From the NCBI GenBank assembly GCA_947040495.1, contig CAMRBQ010000008.1:1-64000 (forward strand): a DNA stretch of 64,000 nucleotides, in the 5' to 3' direction. This DNA is from an uncultured Spirochaetia bacterium (GTDB taxonomy: Bacteria; Spirochaetota; Brachyspiria; Brachyspirales; Brachyspiraceae). This document shows, piece after piece, positions 22,052 to 53,795 of the stretch (within the stretch, counting starts at the first letter, position 1; each line of letters opens with the position of its first letter). The notes under the pieces were generated by a model, which worked only from the letters and a program-made list of their open reading frames with translations, did no database searches and was not told the DNA's origin. Both the position numbers and the translations under genes were made by a program.

Positions 22052-22134
22052 GTACTGGCTCTATATCAATATATATATTTATATTAGGTATAAAATAAAG
22101 TAATACAAATATATGTCAAGAAGAAAGCATCATC

Positions 22135-22366
22135 AATTTTATATCTTCAAATATATACAATTGACTTTAATATGCTATAATCTTCAAATAAAATTTAATC
22201 GATAAAATAATAATTTATGATACTCTCAGTAGATTTTGGAAGAAAAAGAACAGGTACTTCTATACTTGACTATGAAATAGAAATATCATCCTTAAATAAA
22301 CCCATAGAAGAAAGCAATATTGATACTGTTGTATTTAAGATTCCCTATCCAACAAAGGCATGGTAA
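22135..22366 (+). repeat. Partial duplicate of the ruvX upstream region and 5' end
   Basis: Bases 22135 to about 22345 match 24255 to about 24505, including the non-coding upstream stretch with its extended -10 box TGC-TATAAT. The match is close to base-for-base over roughly the first 130 bases. Inside the coding part the upstream copy lacks 48 bases (16 codons) at a short GAAA repeat and then diverges. Together with intact ruvX it forms a direct repeat that flanks the small-gene cassette between. Confidence 0.8.
22217..22366 (+). pseudogene. Truncated ruvX copy
   Basis: The reading frame starts MILSVDFGRKRTGTSILDYE, the same as the intact RuvX protein encoded at 24337 except for minor changes. 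It jumps over 16 codons to EESNIDTVVF, and then loses similarity and stops at TAA 22364-22366 after 49 codons. The RNase H-like catalytic core is incomplete, so no resolvase activity is expected. Its upstream region, including the extended -10 promoter, is preserved and may drive the genes that follow. Confidence 0.8.
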
Positions 22367-24174: not shown

Positions 24175-24336
24175 CTATTAATTAATTATTCGGGCATAAA
24201 AAACAAGCATTGCAGGCAACACCTCAAAATCTTAAACAAAACTAATCCATAATAAATTTTATATCTTTAAATATATACAATTGACTTAAATATGCTATAA
24301 TCTTCAAATAAAATTTAATCGATAAAATAATAATTT

Positions 24337-24774
24337 ATGATACTCTCAGTAGATTTTGGAAGAAAAAGAACAGGCACTGCTATACTTGACTATGAAGTAA
24401 AAATACCATTCCCACATAAACTCATAGAAGAAACTAATGCTCGCAAAATAAAACGACAACTAATGGACATCATAAAAGAAAGCAATATTGATACTGTTGT
24501 ATTTGGGCTACCACTATCTGACAAAGGCGAGGAAAGCCTATGGTGTTTAGAGATAAGACAATTTGCAGAGTGGCTAACAAAGAGTGTTAATGTAAATATT
24601 ATATTTGTCAATGAATATGCAACCTCAAAAGAAGCAGATACTATACTTAAAGGAAAAAAGAAGAGTGTAAAAAAAACTAGTAGAGATTTAATTGCAGCCG
24701 TTTTAATCCTTGAAACTTTTATATATTTAGAAGAATTGGAAAAAAGCAAAAACAACTATAACGAAAACACTTAA
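24337..24774 (+). CDS. ruvX: Putative pre-16S rRNA nuclease / Holliday-junction resolvase-like RuvX (YqgF)
   Basis: A 145-residue protein of the YqgF RNase H-like family. It begins with the metal-binding strand MILSVDFGRKRTGTAILDY (Asp6) and contains VVFGLPLSDKGEESLWC (about 54-70), VNEYATSKEA (about 96-105), and a C-terminal SRDLIAAVLILE with the last acidic ligand. YqgF trims the 16S rRNA 5' end and is essential in many bacteria. A truncated second copy lies at 22217-22366. An extended -10 promoter (TGC-TATAAT) sits about 40 bases upstream. Confidence 0.88.
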   Translation: MILSVDFGRKRTGTAILDYEVKIPFPHKLIEETNARKIKRQLMDIIKESNIDTVVFGLPLSDKGEESLWCLEIRQFAEWLTKSVNVNIIFVNEYATSKEADTILKGKKKSVKKTSRDLIAAVLILETFIYLEELEKSKNNYNENT

Positions 24775-32078: not shown

Positions 32079-32180
32079 CACTGACTTAAGTTGCACTATT
32101 TAATGCAATTTAAAATATAAATATATTTATGCATTAGACAAACTAATAATATATGCAACTAAAACCCACCGCGGTGGCTA
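32079..32180. repeat. Palindromic element between convergent radC-like and mraY genes
   Basis: The left end at 32079-32095 (CACTG-ACTTAAGTTGCA) is a shortened version of the 23-base arm seen at 52302-52324. An AT-rich core follows, with AAATATAAATATATTTA and ATTAGACAA. The right side holds TGCAACT (32154-32160) and the GC-rich palindrome CCACCGCGGTGG (32166-32177), then the TAG stop codon of mraY (minus strand, 32178-32180). One of three related elements in the window, all between convergent genes. Confidence 0.7.
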
Positions 32181-40036: not shown

Positions 40037-40619
40037 ATGCAAAAAGATGATTTATGTAATAAGGCTTATGATTTCTATTATGAAGGCAATGACGAGAAAG
40101 CATTAAAATATTTTAATAAAGCTATAGAGTTAGACAAAGAAGATAGCGTTCTTTATTTTGGGAAATTTTTATGTTTAAAACAACTTTCTCATGATGATGA
40201 AGCTATACAATGCCTTAGTAAAGTAGATATAAAAAGTATTGAAAAAACAATAGAAGAAGTTTTAGATATTCAAGAATATTTTAATTGTGGTGATTATGAA
40301 GGGGCACTATTTGTTTGCAATATAAAACTAATTCTTTATCCTGATGATATAGAATATTATCATATAAAGTCTTATATTTTATTTGAGCTTGAAAAATATG
40401 AAGAGGCTATAAATGTATGTAATGAAATATTTTGATAAACTTATTAAACTAAGTTCTATTTTTGGCAGAGATGCATATTATTATAAATCTGAAATTTCAC
40501 ATAAAATGGGGAAAAATGAAGAGGGTCTAAAAAATATTGACAAAGTAATTGAATTAGATTCTAATTATGCATCCGCCCATATTTTAAAAGAGGCCTTAAT
40601 TAAAAGTATAGATGATTAA
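40037..40619 (+). pseudogene. TPR-repeat protein, frameshifted
   Basis: A tetratricopeptide-repeat protein of about 193 codons. The first frame (AYDFYYEGNDEKALKYFNKA, then two to three more repeats) ends at TGA after EEAINVCNEIF at 40435. The next frame continues with FDKLIKLSSIFGRDAYYYKS and a final TPR to 40619. Removing one T from the TTTT at about 40431-40434 restores one long frame (NEIFDKLIKL). It could be a recent pseudogene, phase-variable homopolymer slippage or a sequencing error. Confidence 0.75.
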
Positions 40620-40620
40620 T

Positions 40621-40706
40621 TAGCATAACCAAAGATTTTCTCTATGAGATATAATACTATGTTAGACAAATTCTATAATGTGCAACTTAAGCCACAGCCA
40701 GTGCTA
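40621..40706. repeat. Palindromic element between convergent TPR and phosphohexomutase genes
   Basis: The right arm at 40681-40703 (TGCAACTTAAG...CCAGTG) is the reverse complement of the arm at 52302-52324, with 22 of 23 bases matching. It leads directly into the TAG stop of the minus-strand gene (40704-40706). The core shares GTTAGACAAA with the element at 32079-32180. The left arm is eroded and its limit is uncertain. Confidence 0.6.
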
Positions 40707-42521: not shown

Positions 42522-43190
42522 TTATTTTGTTTCATCATCAAAAAGAAAATCATTTGTATCATCTTCATTTAAAATATACTCATCTTCTAAATATGAATCT
42601 TCAGTACTTGACACATCATGATTTTCGCTAGAAATTTCCTTATCCCAGTTATCATCTCTTGCCAAAGAAAATGGATCTTCATTCTCATCAACATCAATTA
42701 TATCACTTGAATTTGAATTCTCTATTCTATGTTTTTGATTATTATCAACTACATTTTGTTCATTATGTTTTTGATTATTATCAACTACATTTTGTTCATT
42801 ATGTTTGTGGTTATTATCCACTGCATTGTGTTCATTATGTTTTTGATTATTTTGGTTTTCTATTTTTTTTTCAGACGTATTTATATCATTATTTGTACTT
42901 AGAGCATTCGCTAAATTGTTTTTCATAGCAATCTCTATACCATTTATAATATTTTGTAATCTATCATGATTCACAGCGCTTACAAAGGCAGTTTTTTCAT
43001 CCTCTACCTTTTTATTCACATCTTTCAAAGCATCAATTTCTTTTTCTTTTTCATCTAATATCTTTTGCAGATTTTCAATTCTATCAACAAGTTCCACTAT
43101 CTGATCTTCAAAATATACTATAATCTCTTTAGTTTTGTTTTCAATTCTATCCAAGTCGCTCTCTAATACTTTTATTTCATCGCAGGACAT
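42522..43190 (-). CDS. Coiled-coil protein with a 12-residue tandem repeat
   Basis: A 222-residue acidic protein. The N-terminal half (about 1-80) is a coiled coil (LDRIENKTKEIIVYFEDQIVEL, EKEIDALKDVNKKVEDEKTAF). The middle holds three tandem copies of a 12-residue unit (HNEQNVVDNNQK), encoded by 36-bp DNA repeats, and the C-terminus is Asp/Glu-rich. It precedes zapA in the same operon, so a ZapB-like or other division-linked role is plausible. No homologue is recognised. Confidence 0.55.
   Translation of the reverse strand: MSCDEIKVLESDLDRIENKTKEIIVYFEDQIVELVDRIENLQKILDEKEKEIDALKDVNKKVEDEKTAFVSAVNHDRLQNIINGIEIAMKNNLANALSTNNDINTSEKKIENQNNQKHNEHNAVDNNHKHNEQNVVDNNQKHNEQNVVDNNQKHRIENSNSSDIIDVDENEDPFSLARDDNWDKEISSENHDVSSTEDSYLEDEYILNEDDTNDFLFDDETK
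42728..42835. repeat. 36-bp tandem repeat (three units) inside the coiled-coil gene
   Basis: Units at 42728-42763, 42764-42799 and 42800-42835, the first two identical and the third slightly diverged, with a partial fourth after 42836. The period is a multiple of three, so copy-number change would keep the reading frame and vary the length of the linker region. Confidence 0.85.
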
Positions 43191-51130: not shown

Positions 51131-52279
51131 ATGTCACGATTTATTTTGAACGAAACTAGCTATTTTGGAATAGGTATAAGAACTGAACTCGCCACAGAAA
51201 TGAAAACTAGAAAATATAAAAAAGCATTACTTGTTAGCGACAAAGTTCTTACAGAATGCGGTGTTTTATCTAAAGTGAAAAAAGTCCTCGATGATAATAA
51301 TATTGTATATTCTGAATTTTTGGATGCCAAGCAAAATCCAACAATCAAAAATTGTCATGATGGTATTGAGGCATTTAAATCTTCTGGAGCAGATTGTATT
51401 ATTGCCGTTGGTGGTGGTTCTGTTATTGATGTTGCTAAGGCTATTGGTATAGTAATAAATAATCCAGAATTTCATGATATAAAATCACTTGAAGGTGTCG
51501 CCCCAACACATACAAAGTCTGTACCTATTATTGCTTTACCGACAACATGTGGAACCGCAGCAGAAGTAACTATAAATTATGTTATAATAGATGAAAGCGT
51601 AAATAGAAAAATGGTATGTGTAGACCCAAAGGATATACCACTTGTAGCCATTGTAGACCCTGAGCTTATGACATCGATGCCTAATGCCCTAATAGCAGCG
51701 ACTGGAATGGATGCCCTTACACATGCTATTGAAGGATATATTACAAAAGGTGCACATCCTATTTCAGACATGTTTGAATTAAAATCTATTAATCTTATTG
51801 CAAAACATCTTCGAGGGGCAGTCAAAGATAAAAACATGATTGACCTTGAGGCTATGAGTATTGCACAATATGTTGCTGGAATGGGTTTCAGTAATGTTGG
51901 TCTTGGTATTGTACACTCTATGGCTCATCCACTCGGTGCTATTTTTGATATACCCCATGGTGTTGCCAATGCTATACTTTTACCTAATGTTATGGAATTT
52001 AACATGAGTTCATCTATAGACAAATATGCTGAGATTGCTTGTGCTATGGGCGAATATATTAGAGATATATCAAAAGAAGAAGCCGCAAAAATAGCTGTAG
52101 AAGCCGTCAGAAAACTTTCAAAAGATGTAGGTATACCACAATCATTAAAAGATATAAATATAAAAGAGAGTGATTTACCTAGATTGGCAAAAGATGCTCT
52201 CAAAGATGTATGTACTGGTGGAAACCCAAAAGATGTAAATGAAAATGATATACTAGAAATATACAAAAAAACATATTAG
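51131..52279 (+). CDS. fucO: Lactaldehyde reductase / iron-containing 1,2-propanediol dehydrogenase
   Basis: A 382-residue class III alcohol dehydrogenase. The length and sequence are very close to E. coli FucO, including FILNET at the N-terminus, GGGSVID (94-100) for nucleotide binding, and the metal ligands Asp194, His198, His262 and His276 in the expected spacing. It reduces lactaldehyde from fucose or rhamnose breakdown. GAGGAG lies 7 bases before the ATG at 51131, which is preferred over the upstream ATG. Confidence 0.85.
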   Translation: MSRFILNETSYFGIGIRTELATEMKTRKYKKALLVSDKVLTECGVLSKVKKVLDDNNIVYSEFLDAKQNPTIKNCHDGIEAFKSSGADCIIAVGGGSVIDVAKAIGIVINNPEFHDIKSLEGVAPTHTKSVPIIALPTTCGTAAEVTINYVIIDESVNRKMVCVDPKDIPLVAIVDPELMTSMPNALIAATGMDALTHAIEGYITKGAHPISDMFELKSINLIAKHLRGAVKDKNMIDLEAMSIAQYVAGMGFSNVGLGIVHSMAHPLGAIFDIPHGVANAILLPNVMEFNMSSSIDKYAEIACAMGEYIRDISKEEAAKIAVEAVRKLSKDVGIPQSLKDINIKESDLPRLAKDALKDVCTGGNPKDVNENDILEIYKKTY

Positions 52280-52301
52280 TTTATACTACTTGCCGTAGAA
52301 A

Positions 52302-52427
52302 CACTGGCTGTAGCTTAAGTTGCATGTTGTAAAGCTATCTAAAATATAAATATATTTAAATGTTAGCATACATTACAATGTGTAACTTAAGCGTAGGCAG
52401 TACCAACTTAAGTGTACACAGTAGCTA
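52302..52427. repeat. Palindromic element between convergent fucO and UPF0210 genes
   Basis: The left arm at 52302-52324 begins CACTGGC and ends AAGTTGCA. It matches, inverted, the arm at 40681-40703 in 22 of 23 bases. The core has AAATATAAATATATTTAA, as in the element at 32079-32180. The right side carries two arm copies in tandem, TAACTTAAGCGTAGGCAGT and AACTTAAGTGTACACAGTAG, and ends at the TAG stop of the minus-strand gene (52425-52427). Confidence 0.7.
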
Positions 52428-53795
52428 GTTATTGTAGCTTTGTATAGGAGCGGGTATTCTTCCACCACGTTTGATGAAAGCCTTGCTTGAATTTGTATGA
52501 AGTTTTGCTATATAGCCATATCCCAAAAGCCCACCATAATCGACAAAATCACCAACTTTTTTGCCATGTACAGGGATTATCCTAACAGCAGTCGTTTTTC
52601 TATTTATAACACCTATAGCACATTCATCTGCAATAATGGCTGAAAGTGTCGAAGCCTCTGTATCGCCAGGGACAAAAATCATATCAAGACCAACAGAACA
52701 TATAGCGGTTAATGCCTCAAGTTTATCAATAGTCATCGCATTATCACGAACAGCAGTAACCATTTTTTCATCTTCACTCACAGGAATAAATGCCCCCGAA
52801 AGTCCACCTACCCTACTACTTGCCATAATTCCACCCTTCTTTATAGCATCTGTAAGAATATATAATGCAGCCGTTGTTCCATGAGTTCCCGCCCTTTCAA
52901 GCCCCATGAGCTCCAATATTTCAGCAACACTATCGCCTCGAGCAGTAGTTGGTGCAAGCGAAAGGTCTACAATATTAAATGGTATCCCCATAGCATTGGC
53001 AACCTCATGCCCAATAAGCTCCCCTGCACGGGTAATTTTAAATGATATTTTTTTTATCTCATTAGCAAGCGAAGTAAAATCAGCAACTTCCATTTTTTCT
53101 AATAGACCACGAACAACTCCAGGCCCACTAATTCCAACAGAGATACCACTATCTCCCTCAGATTCTCCAAAGAAAGAGCCTGCCATAAATGGATTATCAC
53201 TGACAGCATTAGCAAAAGCAACAAATTTCGCACATCCAATAGAACCAACATCTCTTGTATTATATGATATATCTTTTATTACATCTCCAATTATAGCTAT
53301 AGCATCCATATTTATACCGCTTTTTGTAGCAGCAACATTCACAGAAGAACAAAGCCTTTTCGTTTCGGTAAGTACAAGTGGAAGCGATTTTATTAGAGCA
53401 AGTTCATTATCGGTATAGTTTTTATCAACTATTGCAGAATATCCCCCAATAAAATCAACACCGCATTCAATAGAAGCTTCATCCAATGCCCTAGCAATTA
53501 TTAAAAAATCTTCAGCACTCCTTATATTACACCCTTCAGTTATAGTAGATATAGGTGTCGTAGAAATACGTTTATTCGCCACGGGAATACCATATTTAAA
53601 ACTTATTTTATCTACAGTTTCTTTGAGATTTTTGGCTTTATCTATAATTTTATTTTTAACTTTTTTGGCGACTACATTTATATCACTATCACAACAGTCC
53701 TTTAAATTAAGCCCCAATGTTACAGTACGTATATCAAGAGACTGTGTATCAATCATTTTTATCGTCTCTAAAATCTCATTTATATCTATACTCAT
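52425..53795 (-). CDS. UPF0210 (DUF711/PFL) family protein
   Basis: A 456-residue protein of the UPF0210 family, with [21 protein letters not shown] near the start, [27 protein letters not shown] (about 225-237), and a C-terminal [19 protein letters not shown]-type glycyl-radical-like GGLLGYGY. The function is unknown. Members resemble glycyl radical enzymes in fold, but no activase is nearby. The stop codon is inside a palindromic element. It is not in an operon with the flagellar genes. Confidence 0.82.

Follow-up and report, generated by a model that had tools for sequence, protein, structure and literature searches.

Hairpin-tipped arms at stop codons and around RadC-like genes: a probable family of small inverted-repeat mobile elements in a Brachyspiraceae genome

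The window, by which we mean the whole 64,000-nt stretch of DNA that was analysed, contains three gaps between converging genes that carry related sequence (Table 1). Copy A lies between genes for an Fe-alcohol dehydrogenase and a UPF0210/DUF711 protein, copy B between a TPR gene and a phosphohexomutase gene, and copy C between a RadC-like gene and mraY. The arm model described below detected six significant arms in the window: three in copy A, one in copy B and two in copy C. A preliminary description had presented the three gaps as related palindromes; the relationship extends to all of them, but the 52.3-kb copy consists of three arms, and in the 40.6-kb copy just one arm is well preserved. 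The sequence likenesses given in that description were reproduced. Positions 52302-52324 and the reverse complement of 40681-40703 are identical at 22 of 23 positions, the core AAATATAAATATATTTA is common to 32079-32180 and 52302-52427, and RTTAGACAAA is present in both the 32-kb and the 40-kb copy. A C precedes the TAG at the element border in all three minus-strand genes (mraY, phosphohexomutase and UPF0210/DUF711).

Table 1. Positions of the arms, cores and bordering features of the three copies in the window
Feature	Position	Strand	Evidence or remark
Copy A arm; tip CACTGGCTGTAG, then CTTAAGTTGCATGTTGTAAAGCTA	52302..52337	+	arm model R1, E 2.5e-11
Copy A core, AT-rich, TCTAAAATATAAATATATTTAAATGTTAGC	52338..52367	.	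sequence; common to copy C
Copy A arm, tip GTACTGCCTAC	52368..52403	-	arm model R1, E 1.7e-13
Copy A truncated tandem arm, tip CTACTGTGTAC + CTTAAGTTG; abuts UPF0210 stop codon	52404..52424	-	arm model R1, E 0.0022
Additional tip-like mini-hairpin CTAC-TTGCC-GTAG, outside copy A	52286..52298	.	sequence; 6 nt past stop of + strand Fe-alcohol dehydrogenase gene
TAG stop codon of UPF0210/DUF711 gene, 0 nt from copy A (AAC TAG / CTACTG)	52425..52427	-	
Copy B arm, tip CACTGGCTGTG; abuts phosphohexomutase stop codon (TCC TAG / CACTGG)	40668..40703	-	arm model R1, E 5.5e-13
Copy B decayed rest, core with GTTAGACAAA	40620..40667	.	second arm not recognisable (arm model)
Copy C arm, tip shortened; 1 nt past stop codon of RadC-like gene	32079..32108	+	arm model R1, E 6.6e-06
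Copy C core, AT-rich	32109..32140	.	sequence
Copy C arm, tip CCACCGCGGTGG; abuts mraY stop codon (CGC TAG)	32141..32177	-	arm model R1 hit at 32141-32174, E 0.00045
RadC-like JAB-domain gene with Rpn-type C-terminal tail, 230 aa	31385..32077	+	Pfam RadC E 8.5e-20; TIGR01784 tail E 0.0068; 1 of ~23 genome paralogues

Next to copy B, the TPR frame stops at 40435 and is followed by a 68-codon open stretch (40436-40619) that runs to a TAA at 40617-40619 and is possibly the frameshifted end of the TPR gene. Elsewhere in the window, a 36-nt tandem repeat in three copies lies within a minus-strand reading frame (42728-42851), and a 202-nt direct repeat with 90% identity occurs at 22117-22318 and 24237-24438, 2.1 kb apart.

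Each arm is a unit of approximately 36-45 nt that consists of a 12-nt mini-hairpin tip, the sequence CTTAAGTTGCAC and an AT-rich inner part. The word CTTAAGTTGCA, with up to one mismatch, occurs 100 times in the whole genome versus 5 times for the reversed control, and between 8 and 38 times in each of 24 genomes of the same family. Searching the 2.55-Mb genome with a covariance model of 36 positions and a 4-bp tip revealed 143 arms at E<=1, of which 128 were used and grouped into 83 sites; this count is a lower bound, because the assembly is a draft of 165 contigs and copies at contig ends are lost. By its word count and arm-model E-values, the repeat in the window is not a chance occurrence. 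The sites comprise 26 single minus arms, 23 single plus arms, 16 simple inward pairs and a remainder of tandem or mixed arrangements. Overall, arms occur singly, as inward pairs around an AT-rich core (the palindromes), in tandem, or approximately 0.9 kb apart around one gene. A genome-wide search that might have left the window copies isolated thus found many more of them, placed non-randomly at gene ends. With the same arm model, 17 loci from sister genera gave no significant arm.

Literature searches for earlier descriptions of these elements yielded no paper. An Rfam search of the window at the gathering threshold matched only a tRNA elsewhere in the window, and no known RNA family at the elements. 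Spread by viruses was also considered and set aside, since the two IMG/VR matches were in GC-rich phage DNA (52-58% G+C) and were judged to be chance.

The arms are seated with precision. Among 107 outer arm ends, 58 face an oncoming ORF (>=60 codons) that stops within 100 nt, and in 32 of these 58 the stop codon is found at -1 to +3 nt from the tip, whereas an even distribution of stops across the 100 nt would give approximately 3; a random-position control was also made. The 32 abutting stops are TAG (17), TAA (14) and TGA (1), and 19 are preceded by C. CTAR was found at 18 of the 32, compared with 15.7% of 223 ORF ends (p=1.7e-7), and CTAG at 13 of the 32, compared with 7.6% (p=2.5e-7); both comparisons are conservative, since the 223 ORF ends include the element sites themselves. 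YTAR was found at 25 of the 32 (38% in the background, p=4.9e-6). On a simple reading of these sequences, the target would be YTAR, most often CTAG. The left and right flanks of an element rarely match exactly, although CTAR and CTAG flanks are frequent. Of the 83 sites, 72 could be classified by gap orientation, and these are convergent in 27 cases, codirectional in 34 and divergent in 11, whereas the 190 other gaps in the same regions include 26 convergent, 127 codirectional and 37 divergent ones. The placement in convergent gaps that had been proposed from the window is therefore an enrichment (27/72 versus 26/190) and not a restriction.

The mini-hairpin tip, located upstream of CTTAAG, exists in many sequence versions, including CTAC-TGC-GTAG, GTAC-TGC-GTAC, GTAC-TAC-GTAC, CAC-TGGCT-GTG, GACAT-GC-ATGTC, GACAC-GCG-GTGTC and CCACC-GC-GGTGG. 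A perfect tip stem of >=4 bp is present in 42% of 86 unique arms versus 4.9% of shuffled ones (the highest of 200 shuffles reached 11.6%), and the covariation score of the tip in 52 arms was 0.511 versus 0.169 after shuffling (0/500 shuffles), figures to be read with the caveat that kinship alone can make sequences beat shuffles without any structure. Slid registers scored at most 0.269, and all four tip pairs vary on both sides among the 52 arms. Because slid registers score lower and the stem sequences are varied, we argue for a maintained structure, in which the tip sequence changes while its pairing is kept. A second version of the arm end, TTTTCCTAGTTGCACATT, stands in place of the tip and CTTAAG on the 5' sides of L078, L079, L081 and L086, upstream of RadC genes.

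Pairing between the arms of one copy gave a different picture. In 20 inward pairs, the complementarity of the left arm to its own right arm did not exceed that to right arms from other copies (p=0.53 for the whole arm, p=0.84 for the tip and p=0.13 for the inner part). The palindrome therefore resembles a single end sequence present twice, in the manner of terminal inverted repeats. RNAalifold found no consensus structure in a gapped alignment of full palindromes. Compared with shuffled sequences, folding was clearly better for the plus strands of copy A (z -3.1) and copy C, but not for copy B or for the minus strand of either A or C.

These results bear on three readings that the preliminary description had offered, namely a bidirectional terminator, a repeated mRNA 3'-end structure and a MITE-like repeat that targets CTAG. 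Selection of the palindromes as bidirectional terminators or 3'-end structures would agree with their placement behind stop codons, the enrichment in convergent gaps and the folding of the plus strand of copy A. However, a GC-rich stem with a T run, as in Rho-independent terminators, was not found within 51800-52900, the region scanned around copy A, and the two structural readings also conflict with the lack of long-stem pairing within copies, with copy B and the minus strands of A and C folding no better than shuffled sequences, and with the many copies made up of single arms. We consider this explanation improbable. The MITE-like reading is the best fit of the three given the frequencies of CTAR (18/32) and CTAG (13/32) at the borders; the mobility of the element is inferred, and it may duplicate its target site.

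The RadC-like gene beside copy C belongs to an expanded group. PF04002 has 25 matches in the genome, 23 of which are RadC-like JAB genes with an Rpn-type tail, or fragments thereof; in sister genera, two matches were found in each genome of one genus and eight and five in two genomes of another. An arm site lies within 700 nt of 13 of the 23 expanded genes, where 1.3 would be expected (Poisson p=2e-9), and 8 of the 12 pairs of neighbouring arm sites less than 2 kb apart enclose a RadC gene. One RadC gene lies between inward arms, spaced approximately 0.75-0.85 kb apart, at contigs C1, C7 (twice), C23, C37 and C64, with related layouts at C52 and C85, and inward arms at contig C61 surround a lipoprotein gene instead. 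In several copies, the 3' arm begins at the RadC stop codon and finishes approximately 41 nt downstream. DNA homology between paralogues spans approximately -180 to +42 nt around the gene and ceases at the arm ends, as would be seen in a unit bounded by its ends. About half of the paralogues (approximately ten) have no recognisable arm, and the sister-genus RadC/Rpn-tail genes lack arms, which means that the gene can occur apart from the arms.

Over their last ~100 nt, RadC/Rpn-tail paralogues are often far more alike than in the rest of the gene (C34/C7: L075, L079, L083), with 91.6% identity over the last 95 nt between L079 and L083, suggesting that the tail and the 3' arm may be exchanged as a module. 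At C52:10168-11163 (L063, L069), a RadC gene is flanked by direct repeats of the tail end and arm, as if it had entered an earlier copy at its 3' arm. A small contig (C144:2856-3494, L087) encodes a RadC/Rpn-tail protein identical over 160 residues to one at G001:C110 in another genus; this identity suggests recent transfer or contamination of one assembly. The module-like tails and the C52 repeats, together with the mixing of tips between both arms of one element, could be taken to mean that the arms are cassette-like 3' modules that were passed between the 3' ends of genes through homologous recombination or gene conversion rather than by transposition. Most sites, however, lie beside unrelated host genes without shared homology, and the abutment to stop codons and the CTAR enrichment imply a short target. 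We regard such spread as unlikely to account for the family.

Searches for an enzyme that could move the arms were negative within their scope. The Y1 transposase (PF01797) had no match in the genome, although five control genomes gave matches, and no DDE_Tnp_1 transposase (IS4/IS5-type) was found. An IS3/IS150 origin of the arms had been hinted at by a loose similarity of the tips and a truncated orfA located at C1:56513, and it was rejected because the IS3 remnants of this genome end in TGGAATGGCAAGGC...GTCCAC and carry no arms. These remnants are sixteen decayed fragments, many at contig ends (C72, C22, C41 and others; L032-L047). A known transposase with the same ends was therefore absent from the three groups checked (Y1, DDE_Tnp_1 and IS3 remnants). 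Comparisons with relatives yielded no empty site: the UPF0210/DUF711 gene at copy A (52425-53795) has no match in seven relatives of the same family, and so may have been acquired horizontally, and at copy C mraY is present in relatives, but the neighbouring window genes are absent from the flanks examined, which are not syntenic.

The RadC/Rpn-tail protein was examined both as a candidate enzyme and as a passenger. In its AlphaFold model (mean pLDDT 73.5), a RadC fold that matches 2qlc is followed by a three-helix tail as a distinct part. The tail matches the end of the Rpn family (TIGR01784 positions 220-273) and the small RpnA protein, a separately translated antitoxin domain (PDB 7th0, E 1.7e-4). 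Most paralogues retain the JAB metal motif, and several lack its histidines. Full-length homologues were not found on plasmids or phages, where the matches were to the JAB domain and none covered 80%.

One possibility is that this protein itself mobilises the arms, in a REPtron-like arrangement with a JAB-domain protein in place of the Y1 transposase and the hairpin-tipped arms as its substrate. It is the sole gene found repeatedly inside arm-bounded units, its metal motif is mostly kept, and neither Y1_Tnp nor DDE_Tnp_1 was detected in a genome whose IS3 remnants have different ends. The armless genes of the sister genera, the motif histidines lost in several paralogues and the lipoprotein gene at C61 all argue against this role, and we know of no JAB protein that carries out strand transfer. 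We therefore consider a mobilising role for the protein rather unlikely. The armless paralogues, the lost motif residues and the C61 gene raise the possibility that the RadC/Rpn-tail genes are cargo only, Rpn-like toxin/antitoxin or defence genes that would hitch-hike on arms moved by an undetected recombinase, and to this we give an even chance. The match to the antitoxin domain of RpnA favours it, as do the four-residue repeats in the tail, which resemble those described for RpnS, and the report that Rpn genes are mobile without being transposases (PMC10327210); the searches took in Y1, DDE_Tnp_1 and IS3 only among many transposase families. Conversely, an internal RpnS-type start for a separate tail protein is clear in one copy only, and those searches produced no candidate recombinase.

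The family resembles several known systems. Like GTAG-type REP/REPtron (RAYT) systems, it consists of short hairpin units 3' of genes, arranged as singles, head-to-head pairs and clusters, with ends that touch stop codons and one gene family flanked by repeats; GTAG REPs often supply the flanking TAG (PMC3733652). The stem-loop that defines REPs, 20-40 nt long and bearing an unpaired GTAG (or CGTC) on one side, is not found here; instead, GTAG forms part of the tip stem, where GTAC or GTG can take its place. The gene flanked by the arms is RadC-like, and the genome has no Y1/RAYT transposase. The unpaired GTAG and the Y1 transposase, both missing here, are defining features of REP systems. With MITEs such as RUP, Correia and ERIC, the palindromes share a length of approximately 100 bp, terminal inverted repeats, the lack of genes, an intergenic location and a high copy number, but an insertion sequence with matching ends was not found among the IS3 remnants and DDE_Tnp_1 searches, and the covarying hairpin tips set them apart. 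The target of IS5-type MITEs is YTAR, which agrees with 25 of the 32 abutting stops here, whereas the DDE_Tnp_1 transposase of that type is absent. Integron attC cassettes are marked by GTTRRRY/RYYYAAC core sites and an integron integrase; the conserved GTTGCAC of our arms does not fit GTTRRRY. The element family would thus appear to work like REPs or MITEs, and we put its membership in either no more firmly than resemblance.

The protein shows a similar mixture of features. It shares with the Rpn nuclease family a C-terminal three-helix tail with four-residue repeats and a multi-copy expansion, but its N-terminal domain is RadC/JAB and not PD-(D/E)XK. Rpn genes have been reported without flanking inverted repeats (PMC10327210), whereas several of the RadC/Rpn-tail genes described here do have them. 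With RadC-family JAB proteins, for which a role as nucleic-acid processor has been proposed (PMC5512222), it shares the domain match and the fold; it differs in lacking the canonical RadC N-terminal region, in its Rpn-type tail and in being present in approximately 23 copies instead of one.

Taken together, the three elements in the window are probably members of a single dispersed family of small mobile elements with inverted repeats, whose ends are recognised by a recombinase and which insert at YTAR/CTAG; we put the probability of this reading at roughly two in three. Under this proposal, a recombinase dependent on the tip hairpin would recognise the arms as ends, and the absence of special complementarity between the arms of a copy fits two independent recognition ends. 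New copies would insert at YTAR/CTAG and persist at sites that form a stop codon, since insertion there leaves the gene whole; where two converging genes have a CTAG in common, duplication of the site would let each keep its stop. The short palindromes would be non-autonomous forms of the ~0.9-kb RadC-bearing unit, or would be mobilised together with it. A further step, that the family is a mobile element of a new class, whose hairpin-tipped arms are recognised and inserted at stop codons by a RadC-type JAB protein carrying an Rpn-type DNA-binding tail, is in our view quite doubtful.

RadC proteins are widespread and recur on mobile DNA, and their function is unknown. With approximately 23 RadC copies in one genome, many of them between inverted arms with structured tips, the question of the RadC substrate becomes directly testable. 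The defined arm ends contrast with the reported lack of such ends in Rpn genes, and the precise position of the arms directly after stop codons shows how a putatively mobile element can spread through a dense genome without damage to genes. If the involvement of the protein proved true, RadC would gain its first defined biochemical role, and a mobilising role would be categorically new.
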